In this document: positions 982-24,487 of the stretch, piece after piece
How the letters are laid out: every line of letters begins with the position of its first letter
How positions within the stretch are numbered: the first letter of the stretch is position 1
Origin: a virus
IMG/VR virus record: IMGVR_UViG_3300029309_000300
Coordinates: 1 to 26,366 of that record
DNA length: 26,366 bases
Reading direction: 5' to 3' (one strand)
The notes under the pieces: generated by a model
What the model saw: only the letters and a program-made list of their open reading frames with translations
The model's database searches: none
What the model was told of the DNA's origin: nothing
Position numbers and translations under genes: made by a program

Positions 982-2394
982 TTACGTAAGGATGACGTGC
1001 TGGTTAGCAGCACGGGTGATCAGGTTGCACTCAGAACGGTAGTGGAACTTTGCAGTGTCCTTGTCGTTCGTCTTGAAACCAAGGACGCCACCGCCCTCAA
1101 CCCAGTGCTCCATCTCACGGCTGTATCCGTTCGTCTCCTTGTAGTTCATCTCCAGAGCAGGAGCCTTAACGCCAGTCTTGGCGTCAGCAACCGTAGTCAT
1201 CGGAACCATGGCTCCTTTGAACGGCTTGGAATCACCATAAGCTCCGAGCAAAGTCGGGTCGCTCATCAGTTTCCATCCGTGCTTGTGGAAGGTGTAACCA
1301 CCTCTGGTGAAGCTCTTAAAGCCAAGCTGAACGGCCATGTCGGCACTGTTCTGGAAGGCTCCGAACTGACCAGGCAGACCAGCAGTGGTCTGGGTAGCGA
1401 TACCAACAGCAAGCATGTCGTCGATAGCAAGAGAAGTCTTGCGGTCAACGTACATAGCGTACTCAGAGGGAGCGCCTTGCTTGTCAAGCTCGAAAATGAT
1501 CGTGTCAATGTCAGCAAAGCCAGCACCGTCACCAAAGGCTCCAGTGGTCGTGATTCCTCTACGAGAAACAGCCTGGAAGTAGCCTTCAGATCCAGCGATT
1601 TCGCCGCCACTGATAGCAATCTTATTATCTGTTGCAGTGTCAGCATCCTGAGCAAACAGCATCATCATCTCGCGCTGGTTCATGAAACGCTTCCGCGTGT
1701 CCATTTCACCCTTCACGTACCATCTGTAGTCGCCGTTACCGACGTTAATCCAACCGATGTTCGTGGCTTGAGAACCATTCACCTCGTAGGTTTCCTTGGT
1801 AATCAAGTACGGGTTAACGCGCTTCTTGACTTCCGTCTGGTAAAACTCAGTGGGTTGATTGGTTCCCTGAGCGTACACGTTTCCGATAATGATCAGCTCA
1901 GTCGCACTGTCCTCAGCCGTCAGGGTGTCGCCATCCATTCTGATAACATCAACTTCCTCGTTGTCATCGTCAAGGCCAGTAACAACCAGTCTCTGACCGC
2001 CAGGGGTCAAAAGAACGTCGTTCAATCTAACTGGCTTTGTAGTGGATTGATTCTCTCCGTCGTCGATGCTATAGTTAGCCACAGTAAAGTGACCAGTTGC
2101 ACCAGACGTGGTGTCCAATCCGCCGCCAGAAGCAATAGGAACCTTCTTGTGAAGGCGACCCTCCTCCCAGTACTGAACTTCGTCAGCGGTACCGCCAGAG
2201 CGGACAGCGCCAGTCAGCTGCAGAAAGCCAGTGATGCCTTGATCACCGAAGGTTTTGATGAGCAAGTCCCGATTATCGGGCTTGTTGTATTCGAGAAGTG
2301 ACCCAAGAGCCACGTAGTTGTCGGGAGTCATTTTCAGCGATGCACCGACATCACTGACGTTGGTACTCCCTTGTGTTGCGCCTATAGCACTCAT
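982..2394 (-). CDS. Probable major capsid protein
   Basis: A 470-residue protein without signal peptide, membrane segments or enzymatic motifs. It has the mixed alpha/beta, Gly/Thr/Asp-rich composition typical of phage coat proteins. The assignment rests mainly on context: it follows an acidic, Gln/Glu-rich scaffold-like protein by 27 bp and lies in the same leftward block as portal and terminase. Its length fits HK97-fold capsid proteins of large Bacteroidota phages (roughly 450-520 aa). N-terminal features include a helical-looking stretch (MTPDNYVALGSLLEYNK, residues about 22-38). Codon use is notably more GC-rich than in the fibre genes, as expected for a highly expressed gene. A different virion protein is possible, but no other gene here fits the capsid role better. 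The strongest uncertainty is the lack of a motif I can point to. Confidence 0.8.
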   Translation of the reverse strand: MSAIGATQGSTNVSDVGASLKMTPDNYVALGSLLEYNKPDNRDLLIKTFGDQGITGFLQLTGAVRSGGTADEVQYWEEGRLHKKVPIASGGGLDTTSGATGHFTVANYSIDDGENQSTTKPVRLNDVLLTPGGQRLVVTGLDDDNEEVDVIRMDGDTLTAEDSATELIIIGNVYAQGTNQPTEFYQTEVKKRVNPYLITKETYEVNGSQATNIGWINVGNGDYRWYVKGEMDTRKRFMNQREMMMLFAQDADTATDNKIAISGGEIAGSEGYFQAVSRRGITTTGAFGDGAGFADIDTIIFELDKQGAPSEYAMYVDRKTSLAIDDMLAVGIATQTTAGLPGQFGAFQNSADMAVQLGFKSFTRGGYTFHKHGWKLMSDPTLLGAYGDSKPFKGAMVPMTTVADAKTGVKAPALEMNYKETNGYSREMEHWVEGGGVLGFKTNDKDTAKFHYRSECNLITRAANQHVILT

Positions 2395-3720: not shown

Positions 3721-3914
3721 ATCCTGTCTCTTCTTTTCATTAGCGACTTGAGCCTCGCTTCCACTGCTGGAGGAAACCCTTTCTTTTTTCTTTTTGCGGC
3801 TGTCCCTCTGTGCTTTTTGTAGATGTTGCTGATTTCAGTCATCAGCCTTTTTCTTTCACCTACGTTAGCACTACCAGTGGTGTACTTAGGGTTAAACTTT
3901 TTTTTACCCATCAT
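3717..3914 (-). CDS. Small basic hypothetical protein
   Basis: A 65-residue Lys/Arg-rich protein. It starts MMGKKKFNPKY and continues with a helical basic segment (ERKRLMTEISNIYKKHRG) and two further basic patches (AAKRKKKGF, LKSLMKRRDRI). It overlaps both neighbours by four bases (ATGA at each end), so it is part of a tightly coupled run of small genes. I do not recognise the family. It might bind nucleic acid or pack with DNA in the head, but that is inference from charge and context only. Confidence 0.7.
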   Translation of the reverse strand: MMGKKKFNPKYTTGSANVGERKRLMTEISNIYKKHRGTAAKRKKKGFPPAVEARLKSLMKRRDRI

Positions 3915-8149: not shown

Positions 8150-10594
8150 TTAAAAAACGCTACATGTGTAAGTTACGTCTCCCCTTCCAGTCTGCTGAGG
8201 CTGCGCTTCGCCATTTCCAGCCATACTATACATAAGCTGAATAGCTACCTCTGTTGTATTAGGGGCTATAAAGTCAACGTTACTGGCCGTTCCTGCATCA
8301 AAAACCTTTTTTATGTCAACAGTTCCGTCATCTGCTGAAAGAGTGGGGAGTATCAATTCGTTCATTTCTACCACGGTTTCTGCATTTGTCAGTACTACAT
8401 CTACAATAGCAAGATCAGAAGTACCTACATGTTGAGTTATTGGAACGGGAGTGCTGAAAGTGTATGTTGATCCTACTTTTCTGCCGACCTTCATTGACAA
8501 GACAAAAAAGAAAGATCCAACTCCAGGATTAATGAAAGTCCACCCTCCAAGACTTGCTTTTATTGACCCGTTTGTGTATTGAGCCCCAATCGTAGATATT
8601 AATACATCACCAGTGGCCCCTCCAGTTTGATCCTTAAAGACAACCATGTCTTCAGTGGTAGATCCATTGGTGTTATCTATGGTTACGTCAACGCTTTTTT
8701 GTCCACTGTCTACGGCATTGACCGTAAAGTGGTCGGTATCTGTAATGACACCTATTACTTGATTTGTAACTCCAAACTGGGAGGCACTTCCGCTAACCGT
8801 ACCTAAAGATCCGTTTGTGTTCGCGTCATCTACATCGTCTTTATACTTAAACAGGACTTCTCTTGGTATCGTCGTCGATGTTGAACCCCCGAAGTTGGAC
8901 AGCATAGTTAGGAGGTCAGATACTCCTATAACTCCGTCGCCGTCGAGGTCATAAGGAGTTGTCGACCCCGCCCCAGTATAGGTATCTACACTTCCGAACC
9001 CACTGGATACTTCTGAGTTTATCATTCCCGACACTATAGCCTCTATGAACTGATCGAAAGTAAACTTTACTGTGCCCTGAGAAGAGTTTATGTGGCCTAT
9101 CATCTCAACGCCCCCCGTAATCCCCTCTCTTATAAGGTCTGGAACAGTATTGTTTCCCTCCTGTACAGCATCAGTAACGTCGTTTACATCTATGGATACC
9201 TCTCCACTGTCTATTACGAGGCCGCTGTTTGCCTTTAGGTCAGTAGAAAGGGTTGTGCCATTAAGGACTAGTCCATCTCCAGGCGTGTAGACTGTCCCGT
9301 CTTGACCGTCGTTTCCTGGGGTGCCGTCCTGACCGTCATTTCCTGGAGTGCCAGCTGGACCTGGAGACCCATCAGCTCCAGAACCTATTTTAAATATTTG
9401 AAACCAACCACCCCTAGATGTTCCAGTGAAGTTGTCGTCGTACTCACCCATCCTGAAAGTGGTGCCACTCCCCGCATCATCTGTACCCGCTATGAAAAGG
9501 CCAGTAGTGTTGCTGGTTCCATAGTCTGTTCCAATACCTTCTACATACACCGCTACAGAATCTCCGCTAGACAGGCTAACAATTTCAAGTCCAGTTGCGG
9601 TTCTATGATTTGAGAGGCTGTTTGAGTCCGTTATATTGTACGACACTATAGATTCAGCATACTGAGTTCCATTTGCAGAAGTAGCCGCATAAGTTTTATA
9701 TGCGTTTTGTGTCAAAGTGGCGCCCCGTTTAACAAAGTTAACGCTGTATGCTATTAAGTACGTCCCATCGGAATTTATGTCAATTTCATAGTTTCCAGTG
9801 TCAGTGCTTAACCCATCAGCAAGACTTTGCGTATCAAATGGTATCTTTTCATAACCCCCATCAGTAGATTCATAATCAGAAAAAAGAAAAGGGGTGCTGT
9901 CATCAGAATGATGAGATGACGATATAGTCATCTTAGCCAGCTTTATGGATACAGCGCCGTCTGGGCCTGGGGGGCCATCCTCGCCTGGAGGGCCGATAGG
10001 ACCTGGAGGCCCACCTGGAGTTCCGTCTTGACCGTCCTGTCCTGGGGTACCGTCTTGACCGTCGTTTCCTGGAGCTCCGCGCAAGTCTCCTGTAGTAAAC
10101 CCAAGGCCAGCCGTGTCTGATGTAAACGTTACAACTCCAGTGCCGCTATTGTAATTTCCTCCAGTAAAACCATCCCCTGGAGGACCTGGGGGTCCACCTG
10201 GAGTTCCGTCTGCCCCGTCTTGACCGTCCTGTCCTGGAGTTCCGTCTTGACCGTCCTGTCCTGGAGTGCCTGGACTCCCTGGTTCCCCTGGAGGGCCTGG
10301 GGCGCCATCTTCCCCATCATTTCCTGGAGTTCCAGATCCGCTCCCTATTTCAGCCCAATTACTAGCGGTGGTCCATCCCCCTCCTTTGTACTGATATACT
10401 TTATCTACATCCGTTACGATAGCCAAGTACCCCTCAACCCGCATATCTGAAGGGAGACTGTTTCTATTAGGTGAAGCCCCGTTAATAGACGCAAATATTC
10501 CAATTCCTCGAAGCTGACTTCCTCCGCTTTTAGCCAGGTTTACGAGAAAGGCACTTGAGTTTGAATGCTGTAAGGGTCCGTCAAATTCAGGCAT
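8150..10594 (-). CDS. Collagen-like fibre protein with dockerin/EF-hand calcium motif
   Basis: An 814-residue protein. The N-terminal globular domain (1-86) ends in the virion motif [20 protein letters not shown]. Gly-X-Y tracts follow at about 88-142 and 173-213, and a third ([19 protein letters not shown]) after a beta domain. The tracts are dominated by [10 protein letters not shown]-type units, with polar X and proline-rich Y positions. Residues 549-560 ([12 protein letters not shown] followed by LLTML) fit a dockerin/EF-hand loop with Asp at positions 1, 3, 5 and 12, so calcium binding is likely. The C-terminal 200 residues are beta-rich. This is presumably a trimeric fibre, exposed on the virion. 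Its start overlaps the upstream collagen gene's stop by one base (TAATG). The collagen, EF-hand and fibre calls are firm; the place on the virion (head or tail) is not known. Confidence 0.88.
9296..9365 (-). repeat. Collagen-coding short tandem DNA repeat (third block)
   Basis: The unit is roughly TCCTGG.GTGCCGTCCTGACCGTC, repeated with few changes. It encodes the third Gly-X-Y tract of the 814-aa protein. The DNA-level similarity could support slippage or recombination. Confidence 0.5.
9955..10330 (-). repeat. Collagen-coding DNA repeats in the first two Gly-X-Y tracts
   Basis: Imperfect 9- and 18-bp units such as CCGTCTTGACCGTCCTG and TCCTGGAGT recur at about 10021-10075 and 10203-10265. 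They encode the two main [10 protein letters not shown] tracts of the 814-aa protein. Near-identical copies in the two tracts are good substrates for intragenic recombination. Confidence 0.6.
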
Positions 10595-13134
10595 TACTCA
10601 GTATTCTTTATTAAATATTTTTTCCCAACCTGTCCTGACCCTCCTAAGGCTGTCTTTATTCTTATGACTATATGTGGCGTATAGTATGATGAGCTTCCAA
10701 ACTGAGTCTGGATATCTATATCGCTACCATAAAGCCAGTAGTCGGCGTCAAGCTCTCCAAAGTCATCAATAACATAGGACTGGTTAGTTCCGTTGTAGTC
10801 AAAGATAAACTCTATGTTTGGGTTCGATGTCCCAGTAATATCTTGAACTGTACCATTTGAATTCTCAAAATAGTATCTCGGAATAAAGAAGTATATAAAC
10901 CTACCTGACGTAGCCCCGCTAGGAACAGTAAACTGAAGGCTCAAGTCGTTTGTAGAACTATCCCTTGTAGCAGTGTTCGCATGTTCGTTTATCTGCTGCA
11001 TATTGTTGCCAAACGACTGAGAGGTGTACAGAGTTCTGAACTGGGCGTCAGTGTAACTAGACCCAGCCTCAGTGGTAGTGATGACCATTCTTACTGGCAG
11101 CCTGTTTATGGTATAAGAGCTACTGCTGGTGGCCGCTGCAGGAGAGGTGTTAGAGCTATAAGAAGATTTATCGTCCCAAACCTTTACAGTAAACTGCTTT
11201 TGGTTTTGTATGTCTATAAACCCTGCGTCATGGCTACCAGACACGCTTGCAGAAGATGATGAAGAGGGTATGCTTGTTGGGCCAACAACTGGGTTTGTTT
11301 GTCCAGAGAGATAGATGGCATACTTGTCAAGGGCTACGCCAGGGCTATTTCTAGTTATAGTCCCGCTAAATGAAGTCTGACCATTGTATATAAGTCTATT
11401 TGCGTTAGACTCTGACGATCCAGTGGCGTTAGTAGTTCTGCCAGCAGTAAGAGTAACAGTGGGGGCAGCATACGAGGGGTTAAAAGAAACGATACTACTA
11501 AATTTCGATTGGTTGCTTTCACTGTCTGTAGCCTTAACCCTAAAGTGCTGAAACGAAGATGCCGAAGGATTGGCGCTAAAAGAAACAGTTTGGTTTGGGA
11601 AAGTAGCCGTTTGGACTCCCGACCCAGTTTTTTCTATCGAACTTCCTACGGGCTGCCAATCTGAAGAAGAGCTTGCTGTAGATCCAGTAAACTTCTGCAA
11701 CTGAAAAAATAGACTAGACCCTTGAGATTGGTTTACATTGTTTAGAGATGAGCTTATAGAAACAGGGGTATTTGTAGATACAGTATCGTAGTCTATATTG
11801 TTTGGGTTGGCAGTTATACTTGGGTTTCCAATTTGGCCTAGAGATATTAGAGCTTCTTTTATTATATCTAATGCGGTTTTGCTCCCATCACCAACTGATA
11901 TTTCGTCCGTCTTAGTAAACTTTCCAAATATTCTTTCGGTTGTACCTGCGTCTGGAAGGAATATATCTATGGTGCTATCTAGGGTCTCTTCTGGGCCTGT
12001 AGGTCCAGTGGGGCCAGTCTGCCCAGTAGGGCCAGGTGGACCTACCAAAGAATCTAAAAAATCCGACTCAGTTCCGCTATTTCCTGGTTGAGAGCTCCAA
12101 ACCTGATACGCCGTATCCCCCCCATTTCCTTGAGGCCCTGGACTCCCATCAGGACCATCAGGACCTGGTCCCCCTGGTTCCCCTGGCGTCCCTGGTGTCC
12201 CTGGTGTCCCTGGTTCCCCTGGACTTCCTGGACTCCCTGGACTACCGTCATCACCAGACTGAAGCACCTCAGTGGTAATGCTCCCACCCATTCCAGAGTG
12301 ATTTTGACAATAGTAGTACAGTGCTGCAGGAGCGTCTGAAGGAACTGAAAAACTGCCATTAGCGCCAGAACTACCAGCAGTTCCGCTGTAGGTCCATCCA
12401 CTTGTATAAGCAGACCCAGAATTATGGGTTCCGTCACTAGTAGTAGATATAGCTATAGGGTGACCGCTGTTGCTACTGTTAGATTGGTCAAACACATACG
12501 TAAAACCCCTAAGAAGGGTTATAGAGTCTTGCTGTACGCCATCTACAAAATACTTATTGGATCCCTCTACGCTTTGTACGGTTACCACAAAAGTCTTTAC
12601 TATCGCTGCGCTCCCATCAGGACCAGGGTTTCCGTCGTCTCCATTTTCCCCTGGAGTCCCTGGCGTTCCTGGAGGGCCTGGCTCCCCTGGAGGACCTGGA
12701 CCTCCATCGTCACCAGGGTTTCCGTCGTCACCGTTGTCTCCTGGTGTCCCTGGCGTTCCTGGGGTTCCTGGCGGTCCAGGACCACCATCTGGGCCCGTAG
12801 GTCCTGGAAAACTAGATAGATAAGCCTTTACTGACTGCTGCGTTGGCACTTTTGTGTCAGAGTCAGAGGCCATGTCGTTCTCATCTAACACCCAGCTATA
12901 AGAGCTTACATCAGTGACTGCAGCAAGCTTAGTTGATATGTAATCCCAAACCCTGCTAACTACAGACTTTTTTGTAGAGTCCTGTGTCCCTGCAGCAGCG
13001 TCATCTATAAGTATCAGGTCATTGTCATCAAGATTACTACCCATAAGATCAGCATCAGTAAGGTCTACGTCCTTACCCTTTACCATCTTAAAGGCTCCTG
13101 AAACCTGTTCTATAACACTACTTAGTTTAGGCAT
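10594..13134 (-). CDS. Collagen-like fibre protein with inserted cupredoxin-like domain
   Basis: An 846-residue protein. Residues 1-108 are an N-terminal globular part with the fibre motif [24 protein letters not shown]. Collagen tracts lie at 111-175, 294-339 and 365-381. Between the first two is a compact domain (about 180-288) of the plastocyanin-like type: [26 protein letters not shown] and [12 protein letters not shown]. It offers the type-1 copper ligand set His225, Cys276, His279 and Met282. Motif [22 protein letters not shown] (342-363) is a known type of segment in collagen-like fibres. The C-terminal half is Ser/Thr-rich beta structure ending in a fold with many Tyr. Pro is frequent in the Y position of Gly-X-Y (13 of 21 triplets in block 1, 10 of 15 in block 2). 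It is probably a virion fibre. Copper binding is likely on motif grounds but untested. Confidence 0.88.
12115..12245 (-). repeat. Collagen-coding 9-bp tandem DNA repeat (second block)
   Basis: Nine-base units of the form CCTGGTGTC or CCTGGTTCC repeat almost perfectly (12182-12240). They encode Gly-X-Pro triplets of the second collagen tract. Near-perfect copies suggest recent expansion. Confidence 0.65.
12600..12800 (-). repeat. Collagen-coding DNA repeat (first block)
   Basis: Units such as TCCTGGCGTTCCTGG and CCGTCGTC recur twice, producing the doubled pattern GTPGTPG...GDDGNPG...GGPGPP in the first Gly-X-Y tract. This indicates an internal duplication of about 80-100 bp. Confidence 0.55.
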
Positions 13135-14769: not shown

Positions 14770-15152
14770 CAGACAGTGATATCCTCGTTAACTTTAAAAG
14801 TGCCGAACAGGTACGTCTTAGTAACGTTGTTGTCTGTATGCTGAAGGTCGTAAACAAACAGCCCAGAGGTGTCGATAGCATTATTTGGGGCGCTTATTTT
14901 AAGCTTACCCTTTAGGTATGTTTCAGACCCTCCAGCCTCATCGTCTACTCTTTCTATGGTAAAGTCTGCTGGAGATGCGGATGAAGAATACGTGACTGCC
15001 GAAGCTGTATCGGAACTTCTAACCTCCATTTTAAAACCAGAATTGCCAAGGGCTGTAAAGTCCACCCCGAACTCTACGTTAAGTTCAAAGCTGTCTCCCT
15101 TTCTGCAAATGATATCCAGCCTTGCCGCTGTATCAAGATTAACCTGCGCCAT
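14769..15152 (-). CDS. Small virion protein linking portal and fibre genes
   Basis: A 127-residue beta-rich protein (MAQVNLDTAARLDIICRKGD...). The pattern 'CRKGDSFELNVEFGVDFTALG' followed by 'FKMEVRSSDT' and a final 'VYDLQHTD...TYLFGTFKVNEDITV' resembles the compact beta-sandwich modules at the N-termini of phage baseplate/fibre proteins (BppU-like), by memory only. It overlaps the portal gene by 14 bp at its start and the first fibre gene by one base at its end, which ties portal and fibre expression together. It may be an adaptor that attaches fibres. Function is not proven. Confidence 0.75.
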   Translation of the reverse strand: MAQVNLDTAARLDIICRKGDSFELNVEFGVDFTALGNSGFKMEVRSSDTASAVTYSSSASPADFTIERVDDEAGGSETYLKGKLKISAPNNAIDTSGLFVYDLQHTDNNVTKTYLFGTFKVNEDITV

Positions 15153-17601
15153 TTTGTATTATCTGATTTATAATTTCTTCTGGAGATCCACCTTCCTCGG
15201 CTTCTTGCGCCAACTCACCTCTTTCTCCTTGTCTCTGAGAAACCAATTTGCTTTGCTCTACGGCCTGTTTTTTGACTCTATCGTCCTTTCTGTCTTCCTT
15301 GAGAACCTCCAGCTTTTCACGGAACTCCTGCTCCTCAGTTCTAAATCCTAAGCTGGCCTGAGCTCTGATCATCTCTATCTCCTTTCTGTGCTCGTGCTTC
15401 AACGTCTCCATTTGCGCTTCTAGCTGAGCCTTCATCTGCTCCATCTGACTATCTATCTGCGCTTTGGCTTGCATCTCTTGTACCTTAGCTTGGGACGCCG
15501 CCTGAGCAGACTGCGCTTGAGCCTGAGCCTGGGCCTGAACGTTTTGCTGAGCCATCTGCTGGTTCGTGGCTATTCTTTTTTTACGCCTTATTACTAGAAG
15601 CCTTTCTGCTTGGTTTATGTCTTTTAGCTGTCGAATGGCTATGGCGTCCTCTATGTCAAGCTCTTTTTGAGACAGAGAAACCTGTATGTTCTGCTCTAGA
15701 TACTGCTTCTCTACATCCTCCATCTCTTTCACTACCTGAACCCCAAAGTTGTACATAGACAGCCTATTAAAAGTGTTCAGTATACCAATGTTTTCTTTTC
15801 CTATGGCGTTTTCGTAAGCCCTATACAGTATGCTTTCTCTAGGTATTACCTGAAGACACTTTACTATGTCTGCGCAAACCTTTTTAAACAACACCATAGA
15901 GGAGTTGGTAATGTCGTATATGGCGTTGTTTCCAGCCGCTATGGCCTGTTGTCTAACTCCAACTAGTTGCTCACCTTTAGGAGTAGTCCCGTCCATGGCC
16001 TCGTTAATTCCCGTGGCGTCTCGGATCATTCTCAGGTAGTGATTGTACAGGGCTATAAACTCGTTGATGTTCCGTACACTATTGCCGATTTCCCTGATGG
16101 GAGGGTTCTGGAACCCGCCTTCGGGATTTTTGCTGCGGTAGTAGAAGACACCCGTTTGTTCGTAGATGTCATGAAGTTCGAGTGGCTGTAGCTCCCCGCC
16201 TTTTCCGAGCTGAACATTCTCCAAACCCTCGATATCAATGATAATACCATCTGGCTTAGCTTTTGCTATAGCTTGCTGGATCTTTAGGTGGGTAAGCTGA
16301 AGCTGGTCTGCAAACCCAACACACCCATCTACCATAGATTTGGGCATCATAGATTCCAGGTTTGTCGCTACCACAGAGTAAGACAAATTCGCCCTTGAAA
16401 TATCGTGCATGTTTTTGGGCATGTTGGTCTTTAACCCGTAGTTAAAAATCATATCACACCCAACTATATAGCTTCCCCCGTATACAGTTGCGTTTTCTAT
16501 TTTATGTACGTCTCTTTTATACACTGAGTTGCTGGGCTCCTTGTAGCTCTCCCCCTTGAAGTAAAAGCCCACGTTTCCATACTTGCTTTCCTTGCTTTCA
16601 AATACCATGCAGTCCACAGACTTGAACTCAAACTCCATGACCTCAACCATGTACTCGTCATACCCGAACTTGTATTTGCCCATGTAGTCGTCATACATAG
16701 ACTGACCAAGCTTTCCAGTGTCGTAGTTGTACTTCTTTGCAGCCTTTTCTGCAATCTTCTGATACTGCTCCTCACTAAATTGATCGCCAGCCATTCTCTT
16801 GAGTTCCTGTATAGAAACTCTTTTTACGTGACCAGCATAGACTATATCAGAAAAGTTTGGGTCTTCAGTATAGCTGTGTATAAACTTAGCTGGGTCTACA
16901 TATTCCGTTGTAATACCGTAGCTTGGGTCATTAGATCTTTTTACTACAGACATGCCAAGTACGGCGAGGTCATTAACGCATCTTCTGTACGTGTTGTCAC
17001 TGAAGTCATTCCACTTCAGTGTCATGTTTGTAGCTATCTGAGCGGCAATTTCGGAGCTAGACTTAATGTTGTTCCCCATGAAGATTTCAGCCTCCTCAAG
17101 GGTTTCTGGTATACTTTCAGTGTCTGCTATTTGAACCCCAGTTTTTTTCTGCGCCTCTATAAGCTTTTCTCTGTTTCTTATTGTCGCCTCAAGCTTTCTC
17201 CTCTGCATGTCTTTTTCATTTGAAGACAAAGGATCTACAGCCTCAAGGTTTGGATAAGGATCAGAAGAAAGTATTTTGTTTACTACAATCCGAACAAACT
17301 TAGGTAGTATCGGGACGGGCGTAAAGTCGAGATTCAAAAAGCTTCCGTCGCCATTGTTTGGGTCAAGGCTAGTAAGAAGTTGCCTGTATATTGTAGTGTC
17401 TTGGGTTCCATTAGCGTACTTTCTATTTCTCTCGAAAGTTTTTACGCGCTTTTTCATAAGGGAACCGTCCCTTTCGGTGCTACCCCATTGGTTTGAGATA
17501 GCTCTAGCATACCTTAACCCATACTCCCTCCCCTCTTTTACGGACCTAGGGGCCAGGGGGTCTGGAAAGTTTATACTGTTTTTGCCCTGCTTTCCGTACA
17601 T
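15139..17601 (-). CDS. Portal protein
   Basis: An 820-residue protein encoded right after the large terminase. The N-terminal third has the portal-type segment FLNLDFTPVPILPKFVRIVVNKIL (about residues 88-111) and the second domain includes 'NDLAVLGMSVVKRSNDPSYGITTEYVDPAKFI', both reminiscent of crAss-like and other large Bacteroidota phage portals. The C-terminal 140 residues form a long Gln/Ala/Glu-rich coiled coil (about 681-775, AQAQAQAQSAQAASQ... to KLEVLKEDRKDDR), an extended tail known in some such portals. The portal forms the dodecameric DNA gate at one capsid vertex and docks the terminase. The start is preceded by the TATATTTGC box 6 nt upstream. Its length is long for the family, and the coiled coil explains that. 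Confidence 0.88.
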   Translation of the reverse strand: MYGKQGKNSINFPDPLAPRSVKEGREYGLRYARAISNQWGSTERDGSLMKKRVKTFERNRKYANGTQDTTIYRQLLTSLDPNNGDGSFLNLDFTPVPILPKFVRIVVNKILSSDPYPNLEAVDPLSSNEKDMQRRKLEATIRNREKLIEAQKKTGVQIADTESIPETLEEAEIFMGNNIKSSSEIAAQIATNMTLKWNDFSDNTYRRCVNDLAVLGMSVVKRSNDPSYGITTEYVDPAKFIHSYTEDPNFSDIVYAGHVKRVSIQELKRMAGDQFSEEQYQKIAEKAAKKYNYDTGKLGQSMYDDYMGKYKFGYDEYMVEVMEFEFKSVDCMVFESKESKYGNVGFYFKGESYKEPSNSVYKRDVHKIENATVYGGSYIVGCDMIFNYGLKTNMPKNMHDISRANLSYSVVATNLESMMPKSMVDGCVGFADQLQLTHLKIQQAIAKAKPDGIIIDIEGLENVQLGKGGELQPLELHDIYEQTGVFYYRSKNPEGGFQNPPIREIGNSVRNINEFIALYNHYLRMIRDATGINEAMDGTTPKGEQLVGVRQQAIAAGNNAIYDITNSSMVLFKKVCADIVKCLQVIPRESILYRAYENAIGKENIGILNTFNRLSMYNFGVQVVKEMEDVEKQYLEQNIQVSLSQKELDIEDAIAIRQLKDINQAERLLVIRRKKRIATNQQMAQQNVQAQAQAQAQSAQAASQAKVQEMQAKAQIDSQMEQMKAQLEAQMETLKHEHRKEIEMIRAQASLGFRTEEQEFREKLEVLKEDRKDDRVKKQAVEQSKLVSQRQGERGELAQEAEEGGSPEEIINQIIQNGAG

Positions 17602-17622: not shown

Positions 17623-19734
17623 TTAGCGGTGCCACTCTTTTACTTTATTCTTCCTGAAGAACACCTTATCGCTTAAATCTGATTTAGGCTTTTTCTGAAC
17701 TCCTTTCTGGGCCCCAAGCAACGCCAGCCCTGAGCTAATAGTCAGGTCGTACTTAGTTCTATTGCTAATTTTATACCCTATCCAATCCTCTAAAGTATCG
17801 TTAAAATACATATTGCCAAAATCTGCGGTCTCAGCCTTGACTCCAACGTGATTATGAATATAGGTTTCTATAGCGTGTGCGTGAGCCTGGATAACATCTT
17901 GAGAGTTAGATGGGATCCCTTTAGTTTTTACATTTACCTTGGAGTTTGATGTTTTCAAGTGATCTGGCCTGTTCATAACATAACCATCGTAACCCCTTGA
18001 CTCAAAGTACCTTACTATTCCGTATTTGTTATTCTCAATTAACAGAGGGAAACCATAATAAAAAGCGGCCATAAGCACGTCTTCATAGAATACGCTGGCT
18101 AGATCTGGCCGAGAGGCATACTCCAAAACAAACATGTTGCTCGGAACCTGATCGTTCATATTGAACTTGTTATACAGGTGCATAGCCCCCTTAGACCCCC
18201 TTCCGTCTACAGTCTCGTCAAGGTCGTAAGAGTCTACGCCTCCAACCCCATACTGAGCGTTTGGAGGTACTCTTTTGCCTCTACTGTCTGCAGTTTTATT
18301 CCGCATCTCTGCAGGGGGCTGCCAAGCTATTCGGAACCTACCTCTAGCGTCTGGGGAGAAAATAACCTCTTTGTCTTTCTCCTTCCACATAAAGTTTCCC
18401 CTCACCACAGGATTCGGGTACAGATTGTTATTCCAATCTATTTGCTGGTATATTTTACCAATATTAAATATGCTCCCTTCGATACTGTCTCGGAATGCTT
18501 CGTCCTCTGTCAGAGGAAACTGACGAATAATCTCATTGAGCTCTGAGGGATCATGCTTTAGGCTGTCCCTTTCGTTCTTCAGGTAGGTTTTACTCCCCTG
18601 GTCTATGGGTTCTTCGTCAATGCCCTCTATTGGGCTAGAGGGATCATCCACAACAGGGTTCCCGTACCTATCAAAAAACCCTTCAAGAGCATGACTAGCA
18701 GGGATAAAAATACGGTATAAGCCGCTTCTGGTTCTTCCGTTTGCGTTTCTTTCGAGCGGATCTGAATCCTCCCATAGGTTTTTGTATTCTTCACCCCCCT
18801 TGTCCATTGGGTTTACGGTAGAGCCAACCAGGGCCTTACCTACTATCTTCTTACCAACGATGAGACAAGTTCTCTCAATCCGCCAGGCTTCTTTAATGTC
18901 GACTGGCTTTTCCCACTTACCTGCCTCGTCGAGGTAGAGGATGTGGAGTTTTTCTCCGTCGTATGCGTTGTTGGTGGTGTTTTTCCAGTTGACGATGGTA
19001 TTGAGGGCATCACCCTTCTGTGACGTCTTATTCTTCTTGGTGATTCGTTTTGATGGTTCCCGAAAAGCGAGTTCCATACGTGGGTTCGTCGTTCCATCCT
19101 GTATAGGCTTAAAGAAGAATGGGTAGCTCCGAAACATCGGGATTACCTTCTTCATGAATATATTCTCCTGGGCGTCTTTACCAGTCTTGGACTGGATTCC
19201 GAGGAGCTTGTCTTTTACTTGCGTAGCTTCGTCAACAAGTACAGCGGCACAGATATTAGTATAGCCAGAACGGCGACACTTAGTATATAGCTGACCGATA
19301 CAACGGGGATCGATTTCACACGCAGCCATGTGAAGAAAGATCTCACGTTGGAACGCAAGGTACGAAGGATATCCGACATCAATTTTCGACCATTGAAGAA
19401 ACATGTAGTGTCTGCCTGTAATATACGTAGGCACACCATTATTGTAAAACCAAACACCGTTACGCCTCCGCTCAAACTCTTGCTCGATGTAAGGAGAAAA
19501 GGAACGTCGAAACTCGGCAGGTTTCTCGAACCACTCATCCATACTTCTAACCCTCGACAGTTCTTTTGGCATTGGGGTGCGACTCCACATTTGCATCGCC
19601 TTAGGTCTGTCGTGGAAGAGGATGTCTTTTTTTGCTGGCTTTTTCGGAAGAACAATGTCAAGGTCGTGGATCTGTATGACCTCTCCTTTTTTACCTCCGC
19701 TGTCCAGCCAAATAGCGCCATCTATTTCAATCAT
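17623..19734 (-). CDS. terL: Terminase large subunit (ATPase/nuclease)
   Basis: A 703-residue DNA-packaging motor. The ATPase part has CRRSGYTN (about 153-160, Walker A variant of the K/R-x-x-G-F/Y-S/T type), the Walker B LYLDEAG (about 266-272) and coupling motif GSTVNP (304-309). The C-terminal nuclease has acidic residues at GVDSYD (Asp501), LEYASR (Glu538) and KYDLTISSGLALLG (Asp663), as in RNase H-fold terminases. Length and the 'YITGRHYMFLQW' segment (about 104-115) recall the large terminases of crAss-like phages. The chosen ATG at 19734 overlaps the stop of the oxygenase gene as ATGA, whereas a longer reading at 19758 would need a TTG start. An AGGAGG lies 12 nt upstream of this ATG. 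The assignment is firm. Confidence 0.93.
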   Translation of the reverse strand: MIEIDGAIWLDSGGKKGEVIQIHDLDIVLPKKPAKKDILFHDRPKAMQMWSRTPMPKELSRVRSMDEWFEKPAEFRRSFSPYIEQEFERRRNGVWFYNNGVPTYITGRHYMFLQWSKIDVGYPSYLAFQREIFLHMAACEIDPRCIGQLYTKCRRSGYTNICAAVLVDEATQVKDKLLGIQSKTGKDAQENIFMKKVIPMFRSYPFFFKPIQDGTTNPRMELAFREPSKRITKKNKTSQKGDALNTIVNWKNTTNNAYDGEKLHILYLDEAGKWEKPVDIKEAWRIERTCLIVGKKIVGKALVGSTVNPMDKGGEEYKNLWEDSDPLERNANGRTRSGLYRIFIPASHALEGFFDRYGNPVVDDPSSPIEGIDEEPIDQGSKTYLKNERDSLKHDPSELNEIIRQFPLTEDEAFRDSIEGSIFNIGKIYQQIDWNNNLYPNPVVRGNFMWKEKDKEVIFSPDARGRFRIAWQPPAEMRNKTADSRGKRVPPNAQYGVGGVDSYDLDETVDGRGSKGAMHLYNKFNMNDQVPSNMFVLEYASRPDLASVFYEDVLMAAFYYGFPLLIENNKYGIVRYFESRGYDGYVMNRPDHLKTSNSKVNVKTKGIPSNSQDVIQAHAHAIETYIHNHVGVKAETADFGNMYFNDTLEDWIGYKISNRTKYDLTISSGLALLGAQKGVQKKPKSDLSDKVFFRKNKVKEWHR

Positions 19735-20348
19735 CTGAAATGGCTTCCTCCTACCCAAAGAACCAAGGACTTTCTAACGCCCGATGTTACGGGGGTTACT
19801 CTATGCATCATGTAGCTGGGAAACAAGACCCCCACACCCTTACCTCTTGGGCAAACCCTTGTGTTGCTTAACTTTCCATCTCCGTTGCTTCCAGTGCAAA
19901 TCATTAATTCACCGCCCTCGTATTCGTCTGCGTCAGACATTTGTATCGTAATAGAAACTTTTCTTTTAGAAGGGAGAGCTCCAACCCCTAAGTCTTGATG
20001 CCAGTCATAATGACCGTTTTCTGATGCGTAGTATTCAGTGTACTGTATTTGCTCCAGGCAGGAACTTAAATCAAACCTCCATAAAGCTTTATTGGCTTCC
20101 ACTGAAAGGTTCATTAATCTTTCGTAGAGCCAGGTAAATTTAGGGTCGTTATTAGGAATCCACTTTATCATGGAAGACCTGATTCCCCCTCCGTCTTTAC
20201 TGCCTATTGTATTTGCTCTTTTTGATTCTGGAAGACTTCCAACTAAGCCCAAAACCTTTTCAACTTCTTCTGTCGTCAACCCTGACTTATACCAGTAGTA
20301 CTGCTGAGGTTCGTTTTCAGGGGCGTTATATATAAAACTCTTTCTCAT
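19731..20348 (-). CDS. 2-oxoglutarate/Fe(II)-dependent oxygenase (prolyl-hydroxylase-like)
   Basis: A 205-residue double-stranded beta-helix oxygenase. The iron-binding triad is HQD (His117, Asp119) and His182 in YMMHRVTPV, with Arg192 (GVRKSLVLWVGG) placed to hold 2-oxoglutarate. The motif EYEGGELMI (about 142-150) and the C-terminal SLVLWVGG are typical of P4H/PKHD-type hydroxylases, found in several marine phages. These enzymes hydroxylate proline, lysine or other residues (or nucleobases or small molecules) using O2 and 2-oxoglutarate. The gene is translationally coupled to terminase (ATGA). The substrate is not shown. Two large collagen-like proteins rich in Gly-X-Pro are encoded downstream, so they are candidates (see findings). 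The enzyme class is reliable; the target is inference. Confidence 0.9.
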   Translation of the reverse strand: MRKSFIYNAPENEPQQYYWYKSGLTTEEVEKVLGLVGSLPESKRANTIGSKDGGGIRSSMIKWIPNNDPKFTWLYERLMNLSVEANKALWRFDLSSCLEQIQYTEYYASENGHYDWHQDLGVGALPSKRKVSITIQMSDADEYEGGELMICTGSNGDGKLSNTRVCPRGKGVGVLFPSYMMHRVTPVTSGVRKSLVLWVGGSHFR

Positions 20349-20353
20349 TTTAT

Positions 20354-21646
20354 TTATCTAAATATCTGTACTGACCCCTGGATAGATAAGTTTCTGCCCC
20401 CGTAGGTTTTAGCTTTTATAATCCACGCATATACCCCGTCAGGAGCATAGTAGCTACCATAGCCTCCATCCCATACCTCCTCTGGATCGTCGGAGTGAAA
20501 TATTACATCTCCCCACCTATTGTATATGCTCATCTCCCATCTTTTCCAGCATGTTGGGTCGTCTTGCTCAGCATAAAACGCATCGTTGATACCGTCATTG
20601 TTTGGGGTGAATACGTTCGGTACGAAAACAATCATTTCCTCGCACTCATCAAACCCTGGCTGTTCATCACACGGAAGGCCTGTATCGCAATCCAGCCATA
20701 GCTCTTGCACTATGTACTCCTGAACCGTGTCTGTAATGTATACTTCTGTCGTATCATACACATAGTCAGTTACATACAGGGTGTCGGTAAAGTAATACTC
20801 TATAATCTCTGGGGGAAGCTGCTGATATACAGTATCATACTCAGTTACATAAAGCGTGTCAGTAATGTACACGTATGTAGTGTCGTAGAAGTACCAGTTT
20901 ATTGGGATGGGGATGGTATCGTTGATCACTACAGTGTCAACTTCCACGATCACAATGGTGTCTGGCGGAAGCTCTACATATACAGTATCTATTATGACTT
21001 CTGGTATCGGGTCGCCACAGGGGCCTACTACAACCCAGTTGTCTAGGAAGTTTTCGTCGTCATAAACCCCAGAGCCCCAGCTTGAACCGTCGCCGTTGGC
21101 GCCTACCTCAGCCCAACCACCGTCTTCAGCATACATGGTAGGACCATAGCTAATTTGCCATATTACCGATTGTATGCTCAAGCCAAGGCTCAGCCAGTGC
21201 TGTATGCACCCCTCTAGATTGCAATACAGTTGATTTGCATAAGGTCCGTCTATGCAATCACTTTGATACTGATTGTATATAGGGAATACAACAGTGTCCC
21301 CAGTGTAGTACGGAGGATCTATGGATTCATCATAAAGGTTTGTCCAGTTAGTAATCAGTTCTGTGCTAGTTGCGGAATACACCCACCCAGGATGATTAGC
21401 CTCTGGAGAAAGAGAAAAACCAGACGGAAAGTCCCATGCCTCATTAATTGCATTACAGCTTTCGTCTAAAGCTTGAAATCCAAACTGCATTTCTGAAATG
21501 CCGTCTGGTGAAGCTTCTCCTCCACAGTTTTCAGTGTTGTTGAAAGCAACTGTAATATACCCATAGTTTAGGTCTACATCTAAAATCTCTAGATCACACT
21601 GTGCAGAGCACAGCAAAGGGAACATAAAAGGTATAATCCACTTCAT
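20354..21646 (-). CDS. Secreted protein with T9SS type B (CHU_C) sorting domain
   Basis: A 430-residue protein with an N-terminal signal peptide (MKWIIPFMFPLLCSA, predicted cleavage before Gln16). Residues 17-215 form a Cys-containing globular region with many aromatics. A linker (about 216-312) repeats a DTxYVTxYDTVY-type unit many times. The C-terminus (about 338-430) has the features of T9SS type B sorting domains: VPNVFTPNNDGIND (342-355), IYNRWGDVIF (374-383), WDGG and PDGVYAWIIKAK (392-413), and a final GSVQIFR. Such domains direct proteins through the type IX secretion system of Bacteroidota. The protein is therefore likely to leave the host cell or be attached to its surface. Its start overlaps the stop of the small gene upstream (ATGA). 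Why a phage carries it is unknown; it could modify or block the cell surface, or have been picked up from a host. Confidence 0.9.
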   Translation of the reverse strand: MKWIIPFMFPLLCSAQCDLEILDVDLNYGYITVAFNNTENCGGEASPDGISEMQFGFQALDESCNAINEAWDFPSGFSLSPEANHPGWVYSATSTELITNWTNLYDESIDPPYYTGDTVVFPIYNQYQSDCIDGPYANQLYCNLEGCIQHWLSLGLSIQSVIWQISYGPTMYAEDGGWAEVGANGDGSSWGSGVYDDENFLDNWVVVGPCGDPIPEVIIDTVYVELPPDTIVIVEVDTVVINDTIPIPINWYFYDTTYVYITDTLYVTEYDTVYQQLPPEIIEYYFTDTLYVTDYVYDTTEVYITDTVQEYIVQELWLDCDTGLPCDEQPGFDECEEMIVFVPNVFTPNNDGINDAFYAEQDDPTCWKRWEMSIYNRWGDVIFHSDDPEEVWDGGYGSYYAPDGVYAWIIKAKTYGGRNLSIQGSVQIFR

Positions 21647-21774
21647 CTTCCTTGTCCTCTATACGCCTTAGCGTAATTTTTAGATGCCTTGTGCTTTGAC
21701 GTCTTCGTCTTGGCGTGGACTCCAGGTCTGTTGACCTTATTTTTTTGCCTGTAAGTATCTACTTGTTTTGCCAT
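21643..21774 (-). CDS. 43-aa basic protein (HAKTKTSKHK...YRGQGR type)
   Basis: A short frame starts at ATG 21774 and encodes MAKQVDTYRQKNKVNRPGV followed by HAKTKTSKHKASKNYAKAYRGQGR (43 aa). It is very basic (Lys, Arg, His), with a conserved-looking RPGVHAK...SKNYxKxYRGQGR pattern that I recall from small proteins of marine phages and Bacteroidota. It sits 12 nt past the end of the tRNA gene and overlaps the T9SS protein's start (ATGA), so the two are probably translated together. It is likely to bind nucleic acid, but no function is known to me. It is easily missed because of its size. Confidence 0.75.
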   Translation of the reverse strand: MAKQVDTYRQKNKVNRPGVHAKTKTSKHKASKNYAKAYRGQGR

Positions 21775-21786
21775 TGTATTTAATTG

Positions 21787-21860
21787 TTGGGGCGGAGGGG
21801 CTCGAACCCTCGACTTCCTGCGTATAAGACAGACGCTCTAACCAACTGAACTACGCCCCA
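21787..21860 (-). tRNA. tRNA-Ile (anticodon UAU)
   Basis: A 74-nt cloverleaf on the minus strand: acceptor stem TGGGGCG/CGCCCCA, D stem GTTC/GAGC, anticodon stem TCTGT/GCAGG with loop CTTATAC (anticodon TAT), and T stem GAGGG/CCCTC with loop TTCGAGC. Discriminator base is A; CCA is not encoded. The first pair is U1-A72, which is uncommon. Anticodon UAU reads AUA, normally decoded in bacteria by a lysidine-modified CAU tRNA. The tRNA lies in the leftward gene block between two small basic genes. AUA codons are common in the phage genes nearby. Confidence 0.88.
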
Positions 21861-22122: not shown

Positions 22123-22207
22123 ACTCTCCGTTCCACTCCTCGTTAAAGTAGATGTGGTTGTTGTGCGAAGATACCCATTTATAATCTCCCCTTCTAAAGG
22201 TGTGATC
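22112..22207 (-). other. Orphan coding-like frame (31 codons), possible +1 frameshift extension
   Basis: Directly after the TGA stop (22206-22208) of the upstream gene, a +1-shifted frame reads DHTFRRGDYKWVSSHNNHIY... to a TAG at 22112-22114. The 31 residues have the composition of a real protein segment (Trp, Tyr, Asn, His, Phe, Glu), and no usable start codon lies between the stop and this stretch. It could be a +1 programmed frameshift product (AAG TGA T to AAG, skip T, GAT), a small gene with a rare start (an in-frame TTG lies upstream), or a sequencing indel. The real status is uncertain. Confidence 0.35.
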
Positions 22208-22529
22208 ACTTGCTGAACTTCTCGGCAAATCCGCCTGAGTAGTCTTTGTCTTCTTTGACTTCTCCATTTTCTTGTAGCTCTTTAACCATAATTTCTAGCG
22301 ACTGCCGCTCCCGAAGAAGTTCCTTGCAGTCTACTGCGGTCTGCTTAACTGATTGAAGCTCTGCTTTCCTAGCGCTGCCATTGACTTCCTGATCGACAGG
22401 CTTTTTTACCTCTTCGATCATATTGTCTATAGCGATTGACATTGCGTCCATCAGCCTTGTAGCTGCGCTTAGCGTACTAAACTTTGTAGAGGAGTTCTGT
22501 GACCGCGACCCTGTAGTATTCCGTCCCAT
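22206..22529 (-). CDS. Helical protein after co-chaperonin
   Basis: A 107-residue protein if read from ATG 22529: Ser/Thr-rich N-terminus, then a predicted helix STLSAATRLMDAMSIAIDNMIEEVKK and a second charged helix (KAELQSVKQTAVDCKELLRERQSLEIMVKELQ), ending GGFAEKFSK. No domain is recognised; the long helices suggest a coiled-coil adaptor or oligomerisation protein. The start is ambiguous. ATG 22529 overlaps the GroES-like gene by 53 bp, while ATG 22451 would follow it after 25 bp. A longer frame from 22628 would overlap the co-chaperonin even more and is unlikely. Its end is followed by the coding-like +1 frame described at 22112-22207. Confidence 0.6.
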   Translation of the reverse strand: MGRNTTGSRSQNSSTKFSTLSAATRLMDAMSIAIDNMIEEVKKPVDQEVNGSARKAELQSVKQTAVDCKELLRERQSLEIMVKELQENGEVKEDKDYSGGFAEKFSK

Positions 22530-23052
22530 TGATCTTAATTCTGTAGTCTCTGTTCTTTTTGAAGCCAACCACGTCGCCATGGGATACTCCAATCTCTTCA
22601 AGCTCTGGGGTGTCAAAGGATACCACACCCTGAGTTACGGGTTTCTCTTGTAGGGAAACCAGCTCAATGAGTCCAGAATGTCCAGTATCATCTTCTTCAA
22701 CAGGCTCAAGCAAACACCAACCCTTGATAGGATAAACCACGCCTTCACTTTGATACGCAATAGCCTGATTCGCTGACGCATGATCGTCATCATACTTGAC
22801 AACGTATTGGTTGTCTTCTTTGCAAAGTGGCGAACCGCCATTGATAACCACGTGATGATGGAAGTAAAGAGAGTCTCCAGCTTTCGCGCCAGTTTCATAC
22901 CTAAGCGGAGTAGCAAGTATTTTGCCTTCTGTAGTTCTGTGTTCAAACTCATTGTACTTGGTGTCTACATACAGCTCTAGTCCAGAGTCTGTAGTTATAG
23001 TGTCTTGTAGTGGGTTGTCTATTTCTACAATAAAGTGTGTTAGTGATTTCAT
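22477..23052 (-). CDS. Tandem GroES-like co-chaperonin
   Basis: A 191-residue protein with two GroES-like halves. The C-terminal half (106-191) is the clearer: YPIKGWCLLEPVEEDD at the start, SGLIE, QEKPVTQGVV, then GVSHGDVVGFKKNRDYRIKINGTEYYRVAVTELLYKV, matching the GroES beta-barrel order (lead strand, mobile-loop-like region, GD turn and final strands). The N-terminal half (5-100) has a similar but more divergent order: FIVEIDNPLQDTITTDSGLELYVD, then GKILATPL, GDSLYFHHHVV and YVVKYDD. It carries a His triplet at 65-67. GroES proteins are about 95 aa, so twice the usual length fits a fused tandem form. It would cap the host GroEL to fold phage proteins, probably including capsid or fibres. 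The gene starts 4 nt after the stop of the previous one. Confidence 0.82.
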   Translation of the reverse strand: MKSLTHFIVEIDNPLQDTITTDSGLELYVDTKYNEFEHRTTEGKILATPLRYETGAKAGDSLYFHHHVVINGGSPLCKEDNQYVVKYDDDHASANQAIAYQSEGVVYPIKGWCLLEPVEEDDTGHSGLIELVSLQEKPVTQGVVSFDTPELEEIGVSHGDVVGFKKNRDYRIKINGTEYYRVAVTELLYKV

Positions 23053-23618: not shown

Positions 23619-24035
23619 ATGCCTAAGTCAAGGGTTTCTAAAACCAAGATGTTCAGGGACTTTTCTAGGATGAAAGGGAAGTACTTGAACAACAACTACC
23701 TCAAAAACCTGCATTCGGCAAGGAAGAAGTTTTGCCAAGACAGTGGAGTGGGGTGGAAGCACTTGGAGTTTATGATCTGGGCCTACGACCTAGAGTTCTT
23801 TACTATAGACTACGCCGCAGAGGAATACGAATACAATAGAACCAATATGGCGAACAGGATTATATACCCACTGCAATCAGACGGGTATATATACAAGCAC
23901 TTTGAGAGACTAACCCCCTCGAAGACATTAGAAGATCACATATTCAGAGAAGAGACAAAGTACAACTACAGGGTGCGATACGCCCTATCTCAACGCGCCA
24001 GGCTGTTGGTGCAGCGGTTTTACCAGAGCTTGTAG
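23619..24035 (+). CDS. Candidate winged-helix regulator, the only rightward gene
   Basis: A 138-residue basic protein, transcribed rightward, opposite to everything else in this window. The middle (about residues 45-100) has the order of a winged-helix/MarR-like fold: helix HLEFMIWAYDLEFFTIDYAAEEYE, a turn, recognition-helix-like NRTNMANRIIYPLQSDG, then wing-like YIYKHFERLTPS and a last helix YRVRYALSQRARLLVQRFYQ. Marine phages carry similar small proteins. Together with the palindrome in the 20-bp gap to the divergent gene this fits an autoregulated repressor or activator. The 3' end overlaps the M15 peptidase gene tail by 16 bp. The DNA-binding role is plausible but not proven. Confidence 0.7.
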   Translation: MPKSRVSKTKMFRDFSRMKGKYLNNNYLKNLHSARKKFCQDSGVGWKHLEFMIWAYDLEFFTIDYAAEEYEYNRTNMANRIIYPLQSDGYIYKHFERLTPSKTLEDHIFREETKYNYRVRYALSQRARLLVQRFYQSL

Positions 24036-24487
24036 GTCGTGCCTGGGTACTTGGGGTCTTTGTATGCTTTCAATACCCTCCCTTTGTTTTCTGTAGGGGA
24101 GTTGTAGCTTACGTGAACCCAGTCGGGGTTGGTGTCGTCACCGAACTCCCATATCAGCTGATCGAAGTCCAAGCAGTCTTTGATGTAGTGAAATATCTCT
24201 GCGTTGGTGACTTTACCAAATACATCTGCGTCCATATCCAACGCCCTGCCCTGACAGTGCTGTGAGGTGGTGCTCCCCCCGATAGCGGTGTTTAGCTTAG
24301 GGGATCTGTACCCAGAAGAAATGTATATCGGGACACCGAAGTGCTCCCTAACAGGCTGAAAGATGTGCTCGGCAACCAGCTTCAGATTGGTGATCTGCGG
24401 GTCGTCAGGCTGATTTTTTAAACCAAGTCTGCTGGCCGTTAAACTTTTGGTACACTCTTTTAGAGTCAGGTTTTCTGATAAATTCAT
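24020..24487 (-). CDS. Peptidase M15 family protein, probable endolysin
   Basis: A 155-residue zinc peptidase of the M15A type (D-Ala-D-Ala carboxypeptidase/endopeptidase). Metal and catalytic motifs are visible: SQHCQGRALDMD (His77, Asp84, with Asp86) and DWVHVSY (His125). GYRSPKLNTAIGG (about 59-71) is also typical. Such proteins cut stem peptides of peptidoglycan and often act as phage endolysins. There is no signal peptide or membrane domain, so a separate holin is expected; none is obvious next door. An AGGAAG-like sequence lies 5-10 nt upstream of the ATG, an unusual Shine-Dalgarno for this window. A virion-associated (entry) role is possible. Confidence 0.88.
   Translation of the reverse strand: MNLSENLTLKECTKSLTASRLGLKNQPDDPQITNLKLVAEHIFQPVREHFGVPIYISSGYRSPKLNTAIGGSTTSQHCQGRALDMDADVFGKVTNAEIFHYIKDCLDFDQLIWEFGDDTNPDWVHVSYNSPTENKGRVLKAYKDPKYPGTTYKLW

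Follow-up and report, generated by a model that had tools for sequence, protein, structure and literature searches.

The 26,366-nucleotide stretch of viral DNA analysed here (the window) encodes a predicted type B cargo protein of the type IX secretion system (T9SS) that very probably reaches the surface of the infected cell. Our favoured explanation, to which we give a probability of roughly 0.55, is that this protein would be made late in infection, displayed through the T9SS of the host, and used to remodel the host surface. The gene had been singled out in an earlier note made from the letters of the window and a list of its open reading frames. The features that bear on it are the following.

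982..2394, minus strand: virion structural, probable major capsid protein (phrog_13704), by PHROG match
15139..17601, minus strand: portal protein (phrog_6547), by PHROG match
17623..19758, minus strand: terminase large subunit (phrog_6681), by PHROG match
19731..20348, minus strand: 2OG-Fe(II) oxygenase, between cargo and terminase, by profiles; absent from this position in L001, the closest relative
20354..21646, minus strand: T9SS type B cargo gene (P0001), 430 aa, ATG start, by TIGR04131 and CHU_C profiles
20357..20626, minus strand: C-terminal sorting domain (CTD), residues 341-430, TIGR04131/CHU_C, by profiles and fold matches to T9SS CTDs
20627..21010, minus strand: acidic DTxY-repeat linker, residues 213-340, differing in length among relatives, by sequence and alignments
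21011..21601, minus strand: N-terminal passenger domain (N-domain), residues 16-212 (197 residues), phage-specific and cysteine-bearing, by alignments and AlphaFold2
21602..21646, minus strand: predicted Sec signal peptide, residues 1-15, MKWIIPFMFPLLCSA, with the mature protein starting at Q16 (Q-rule), by inspection and homologue conservation
21643..21774, minus strand: 43-aa basic ORF, its stop overlapping the start codon of the cargo, by ORF positions
21786..21860, minus strand: tRNA-Ile (anticodon tat), upstream of the cargo, by tRNA call
22206..22628, minus strand: conserved 140-aa neighbour, upstream of the cargo in most of the window's clade, by locus comparison
22477..23052, minus strand: GroES-like protein (phrog_13932), by profile and PHROG match
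24020..24487, minus strand: M15 endolysin (phrog_894), by profile and PHROG match

The start assigned to the cargo gene is supported by the four nucleotides, ATGA, that it shares with the stop of the 43-aa ORF, an overlap that also suggests coupled translation of the two. No match to the Bacteroidetes promoter consensus was found upstream of the gene, and the single match elsewhere in the window equals the chance expectation. The product contains 71 acidic (D/E) and 8 basic (K/R) residues. Its DTxY repeat linker, described in the earlier note, is real but of variable length, spanning 73 to 282 aa across the family with 5 to 21 DT and almost no K or R. The sorting motifs quoted there (VPNVFTPNNDGIND, IYNRWGDVIF, WDGG and PDGVYAWI) all lie within the last 90 residues.

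Profile searches bear out the assignment to type B cargo. The C-terminus scores 41.9 bits against TIGR04131 (E 8.5e-11; curated cutoff 35) and 62.4 bits against PF13585, the CHU_C family (E 4.4e-17; curated cutoff 27). CHU_C is above its cut-off in all 18 phage records, and some relatives of the cargo fall under the TIGR04131 cut-off, at 27-33 bits. The signal peptide was called by inspection and by conservation across homologues, for which we used the 52 distinct proteins whose N-domain is nearly complete. Despite widely divergent signal peptides, glutamine occupies position +1 of the predicted cleavage site in all 52, preceded at −1 by A, G or S (35, 10 and 7 proteins, respectively); a glutamine at +1 after the signal peptide is the Bacteroidetes Q-rule (PMC5837995, PMC10653852). 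Every one of these homologues also carries the sorting motif [PA]N-x-F-[TS]-P-[ND]-x-DG, and 48 end in a C-terminal arginine, at least two of the other four being clipped by contig ends.

Pairwise dN/dS, obtained from Nei-Gojobori-type counts with some pairs saturated, is about 0.05-0.2 and alike for the three parts of the mature protein; N-domain, linker and CTD are all under purifying selection. Because the Q-rule residue and the sorting motif are kept and dN/dS is low, a decaying or decorative CTD is unlikely. Conservation is highest in the N-domain, where the column mean is 0.78, versus 0.59 for the CTD.

The whole cargo was modelled by running AlphaFold2 with 31 family members. Mean pLDDT was 53 and pTM 0.41; the CTD was modelled moderately well, and the linker adopts no fixed structure. 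The top Foldseek match of the CTD model in the PDB was 8glk_D, the NucA substrate signal in a T9SS complex (prob 1.00, E 0.01). A second aligner placed the model close to the same chain (Z 7.7, 2.3 Å over 73), to the CTD of PorZ (5m11 684-776, Z 8.4), to RemZ (8gl8_D, Z 6.9) and to RgpB (5ag8, Z 6.8). Unrelated Ig-like domains score close to these T9SS CTDs, and the predicted fold is consistent with a T9SS signal in a supporting role, the profile matches carrying the weight. Taking the structural match together with the purifying selection on the sorting domain, routing through the host T9SS, as the earlier note proposed, is the best reading.

For the N-domain, put forward in the earlier note for structure prediction, a beta-rich model was obtained (pTM 0.71, pLDDT 65.6), which is probably an Ig-like beta-sandwich but whose fold matches are weak only. 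These Ig-like matches, lamin tail and BF0290 with a top Z of 5.1, were not used to assign a function. A PDB sequence search with the N-domain gave no match, profile and sequence searches found no carbohydrate-binding or enzyme family, and BFVD holds one relative, A0A516LPX6, at 53% identity. Since the N-domain belongs to no recognisable family and its Ig-like matches are weak, nothing about it singles out receptor binding.

The neighbourhood of the cargo gene is that of a phage. Relatives of the window's terminase are found in Flavobacterium elemo phages and in Cellulophaga, Tenacibaculum and Maribacter phages, making a Bacteroidota host likely. Relatives of the cargo occur on 72 IMG/VR contigs (44 and 28 further), a few of them with a partial protein. 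Within the clade of the window, the cargo gene is usually found between the 140-aa gene adjoining GroES and the terminase; the earlier note was right about the phage surroundings but had placed the gene inside the packaging block, when in the window it sits between the GroES-like gene and the terminase, immediately upstream of that block. The tRNA-Ile (tat) of the window is present also in L001, L009, L030, L021 and L088. L009 and L030 have a tRNA-Arg (tct; 3731-3805 and 8504-8578, respectively) immediately after the cargo and tRNA-Ile (tat) before it, so that phage tRNAs bracket the cargo in these relatives. Elsewhere in the window, positions 8150-13134 hold two ORFs of 814 and 846 aa with collagen-like GPP/GPPGxPG repeats, one of which matches tail-fibre PHROGs, and an RCC1-repeat (beta-propeller) protein is encoded at 5160-6461 within the structural block.

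Two other clades carry the gene in different contexts. In the second, whose terminase is 48% identical, the cargo follows the capsid gene and is flanked by elemo gp25 and gp24 homologues. Because these two genes are direct neighbours in the isolated phage, the cargo of L012, L010, L083 and L082 is best regarded as an extra, moron-type gene. In the third, with a terminase about 20% identical that still belongs to phrog_6681, the cargo is on the strand opposite to the flanking terminase and portal genes. Two further cargo contigs, L062 (109 kb) and L069 (53 kb), gave no match to the phrog_6681 terminase in the records analysed.

The position between virion structural genes in the second clade invites the suggestion that the protein is part of the virion, a fibre or head decoration that has borrowed an Ig-like CHU_C domain for binding; the earlier note had likewise considered a fibre-like mimic of host surface proteins. 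We consider this very unlikely. The cleavable signal peptide, with its glutamine kept in 52/52 homologues, would remove the protein from the cytoplasm, the site of virion assembly; the cargo of the third clade stands alone on the opposite strand; and the structural block of the second clade occurs without the cargo in an isolate and in one complete genome of an uncultured phage.

The two ends of the protein have different distributions. CTD-like domains are present in 199/199 sampled genomes of the order of a Flavobacteriales metagenome-assembled genome (MAG), G001, the best being about 50% identical. The N-domain was found in none of about 830 genomes searched from the family, order and phylum of G001, except for one probable chimera. 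A scan of the genome contig collection with the N-domain gave no match beyond that contig end, and one with the full-length cargo protein matched no genome contig. The cargo thus appears to join an essentially phage-only passenger to an export label of host type. The exception, L046:9941-11383 (plus strand), is a contig end of G001 in which the N-domain is present up to residue 137-144 and then continues in-frame into alpha/beta-hydrolase-like sequence, while GC drops from 0.48 to 0.28. We take it as a probable chimera rather than as evidence for a cellular origin of the passenger. A sister genome of G001 gave no N-domain match, on a contig that stops about 1.8 kb past the neighbouring gene.

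The host-like CTD and this truncated N-domain on a MAG contig are what could be said for regarding the gene as a host fragment, the product of a mis-joined contig or a decaying passenger gene. Conservation of the neighbourhood across many contigs led us to reject the first two of these, which the earlier note had raised; in view of the number of contigs (72), the fixed contexts in phages, the purifying selection and the absence of stop codons, an explanation of this kind is extremely improbable, and the cargo gene is a genuine phage gene.

Comparison of loci indicates that the parts of the cargo have recombined among phages. L002 and L008 have N-domains that are 94% identical and CTDs that are 38-40% identical, and the corresponding values for L009 and L027 are 95% and 39-40%. 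Across 31 non-redundant loci that include a terminase, similarity of the CTD is correlated with that of the terminase when the N-domain is controlled for (partial Mantel r 0.38, p 0.0002), while N-domain similarity does not when the CTD is controlled for (r 0.005, p 0.44). As the Mantel test handles the kinship of loci crudely, we treat as a lead the possibility that the label stays with the phage backbone, perhaps with its host, and the passenger moves. Between the window and L001, dS is 1.2 for the cargo, 0.2-0.4 for most upstream neighbours and 0.49 for the terminase, one small gene and the portal being exceptions to the low values; the contrast is compatible with phages having exchanged the cargo gene. 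At L043:913-1692 (plus strand), a relative combines signal peptide, linker and CTD with a different, short cysteine-rich passenger that is found also inside the L062 cargo. Two uncultured phages of about 640 kb, LR756502.1 (519121-519387) and LR745206.1 (15118-15435), have three CHU_C-like places each.

Type B cargo requires PorP/SprF shuttles, which are limiting, and cargo and shuttle are required in stoichiometric amounts (PMC12618676). A search for the shuttle family (PF11751) found it in 0/18 phage records, several of which are partial; among seven Bacteroidota control genomes, four have 14-23 copies each and three weak matches only. Adjacency to porP/sprF is common but not obligatory, being missing for 3/12 type B cargo of Flavobacterium johnsoniae (PMC12618676), and because adjacency is not a defining feature, membership in type B stands without a neighbouring shuttle gene. 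Similar type B CTDs show shuttle cross-talk, and the shuttles anchor the cargo (PMC12618676, PMC9143113).

These properties lend themselves to a decoy mechanism, in which an abundant orphan type B cargo saturates PorP/SprF and thereby strips the host of adhesins and gliding proteins. Limiting endogenous shuttles, the lack of a shuttle gene in the phage records tested and a CTD that follows the phage backbone would all fit. A mere plug would have no need of an N-domain, which is the best conserved part of the protein, and we judge saturation as the main effect to be decidedly unlikely.

The same phages carry further predicted cargo. Of the 18 records with type B cargo, 7 also encode type A cargo of the T9SS, about 800-900 aa long. 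Two examples of 800-845 aa, L112:2577-4982 (minus strand) and L113:3329-5860 (minus strand), score 31.9 and 34.3 bits against TIGR04183 (cutoff 23) and have Q-rule signal peptides; the gene upstream of the L112 example matches GTA-holin weakly. At L114:3844-6528 (plus strand), and also in L115-L118, the type A cargo is in-frame with an upstream basic ORF (MSEDRVRKRISRLLKKHG...), so that the signal-peptide-like stretch is internal, which may reflect either an internal start or a fusion. A search for type A cargo in isolated phages gave no match. Directly upstream of the type B cargo of L062 is an M43 metalloprotease (5908-7947, plus strand) with a signal peptide followed by Q and a dockerin-like stretch. 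By eye it resembles type A cargo, but TIGR04183 gives no score and we do not claim it as such. The 109-kb contig also has genes for QueC, QueE, GTP cyclohydrolase and thymidylate synthase.

A secreted-looking protease beside one relative, together with the type A cargo in seven records, the Ig-like N-domain and the frequency of adhesins among type B cargo (PMC12618676), could be taken to mean that the protein acts outward, as a fitness factor unrelated to exclusion that helps infected cells, or virions once released, adhere to particles, polysaccharide or other cells. With no carbohydrate-binding or enzyme family matched by the N-domain, we regard such a role as unlikely, if less so than saturation of the shuttles.

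In the explanation that we favour, display on the host surface, Sec would export the cargo and signal peptidase would bare the glutamine at its mature N-terminus, after which the host type IX translocon would take up the C-terminal type B domain. Sequence, conservation and predicted fold strongly support these two steps. A PorP/SprF-type shuttle of the host would then pull the cargo out and anchor it on the outer surface, a step expected from the published biology of type B cargo and from the lack of a shuttle in the phage records tested. The phage-only N-domain would be held outward on its long, acidic, K/R-poor linker, and we infer that the surface of the infected cell would thereby be remodelled, keeping other phages or the phage's own progeny from adsorbing, either because receptors are covered or because shuttles that would carry host adhesins are occupied. 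Expression is presumed to be late from the position of the gene near GroES, terminase or capsid genes.

As to purpose, exclusion of superinfecting phages or masking of receptors is the likeliest, although we hold it at somewhat less than even odds. Mutations in T9SS and gliding functions confer phage resistance (PMC9233685, PMC13288928), and because these functions are recurrent targets of such mutations, covering or displacing T9SS-dependent receptors would be a reasonable aim. Counting against the favoured explanation, no diversifying selection on the cargo was found and dN/dS is low; strong purifying selection with scant diversification is unexpected for a pure arms-race surface protein.

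The superinfection-exclusion proteins of the T5 Llp type are small lipoproteins that reach the outer membrane of the infected cell by the Lol route. They resemble what we propose for the window cargo in that re-adsorption is blocked at the outer membrane, but have no homology to it.

Phage-encoded T9SS cargo is already in the literature, which qualifies the earlier note's description of the gene as unusual. Cryophage encodes proteins with a T9SS sorting domain, as the window does, and both hijacking of the host T9SS and superinfection exclusion have been proposed for it (PMC7468147). Its signals are of type A, on enzymes and PA14 proteins encoded by variable accessory genes of one phage (PMC7468147), whereas the window cargo has a type B signal and a phage-only passenger, occurs across several phage lineages and is kept in place. 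ORFs with T9SS sorting domains also lie upstream of head genes in Bacteroidetes phages of BACON-phage cluster 2 (PMC6949934); there they stand beside BACON-domain ORFs, one ORF having both domains, and the comparison is one of descriptions. Phage proteins of Porphyromonas gingivalis use the Q-rule signal peptidase route, a further qualification, but unlike the window cargo no T9SS sorting domain is reported for them (PMC10367356). Among host proteins, SprB and other type B cargo share the C-terminal signal type, and F. johnsoniae has orphan type B cargo that likewise has no adjoining shuttle gene (PMC12618676, PMC9143113). Cargo of the SprB type are host adhesins, usually with an adjacent shuttle gene, in contrast to a phage-encoded protein with an unrelated N-domain. 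As far as our searches show, subscription papers and preprints lying outside them, what appears to be new is a type B signal on a phage-specific passenger family found across several lineages, and so too are the fixed place in one clade, the purifying selection on the label, the swaps and the co-occurrence with type A cargo.

Bacteroidota use the T9SS for both export and gliding, and mutations that confer phage resistance repeatedly hit its components. If the favoured explanation is true, phages that enter by way of T9SS-dependent surface features would also redecorate the infected cell through the T9SS. On a broader and doubtful view, phage lineages may share a pool of phage-only surface proteins bearing interchangeable type B labels matched to the shuttles of the current host, alongside type A cargo, with the T9SS serving as a standard route for excluding competitors. 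The natural swaps of passenger and label also provide a ready set for studying the specificity between type B signals and their shuttles, a question left open in PMC12618676.
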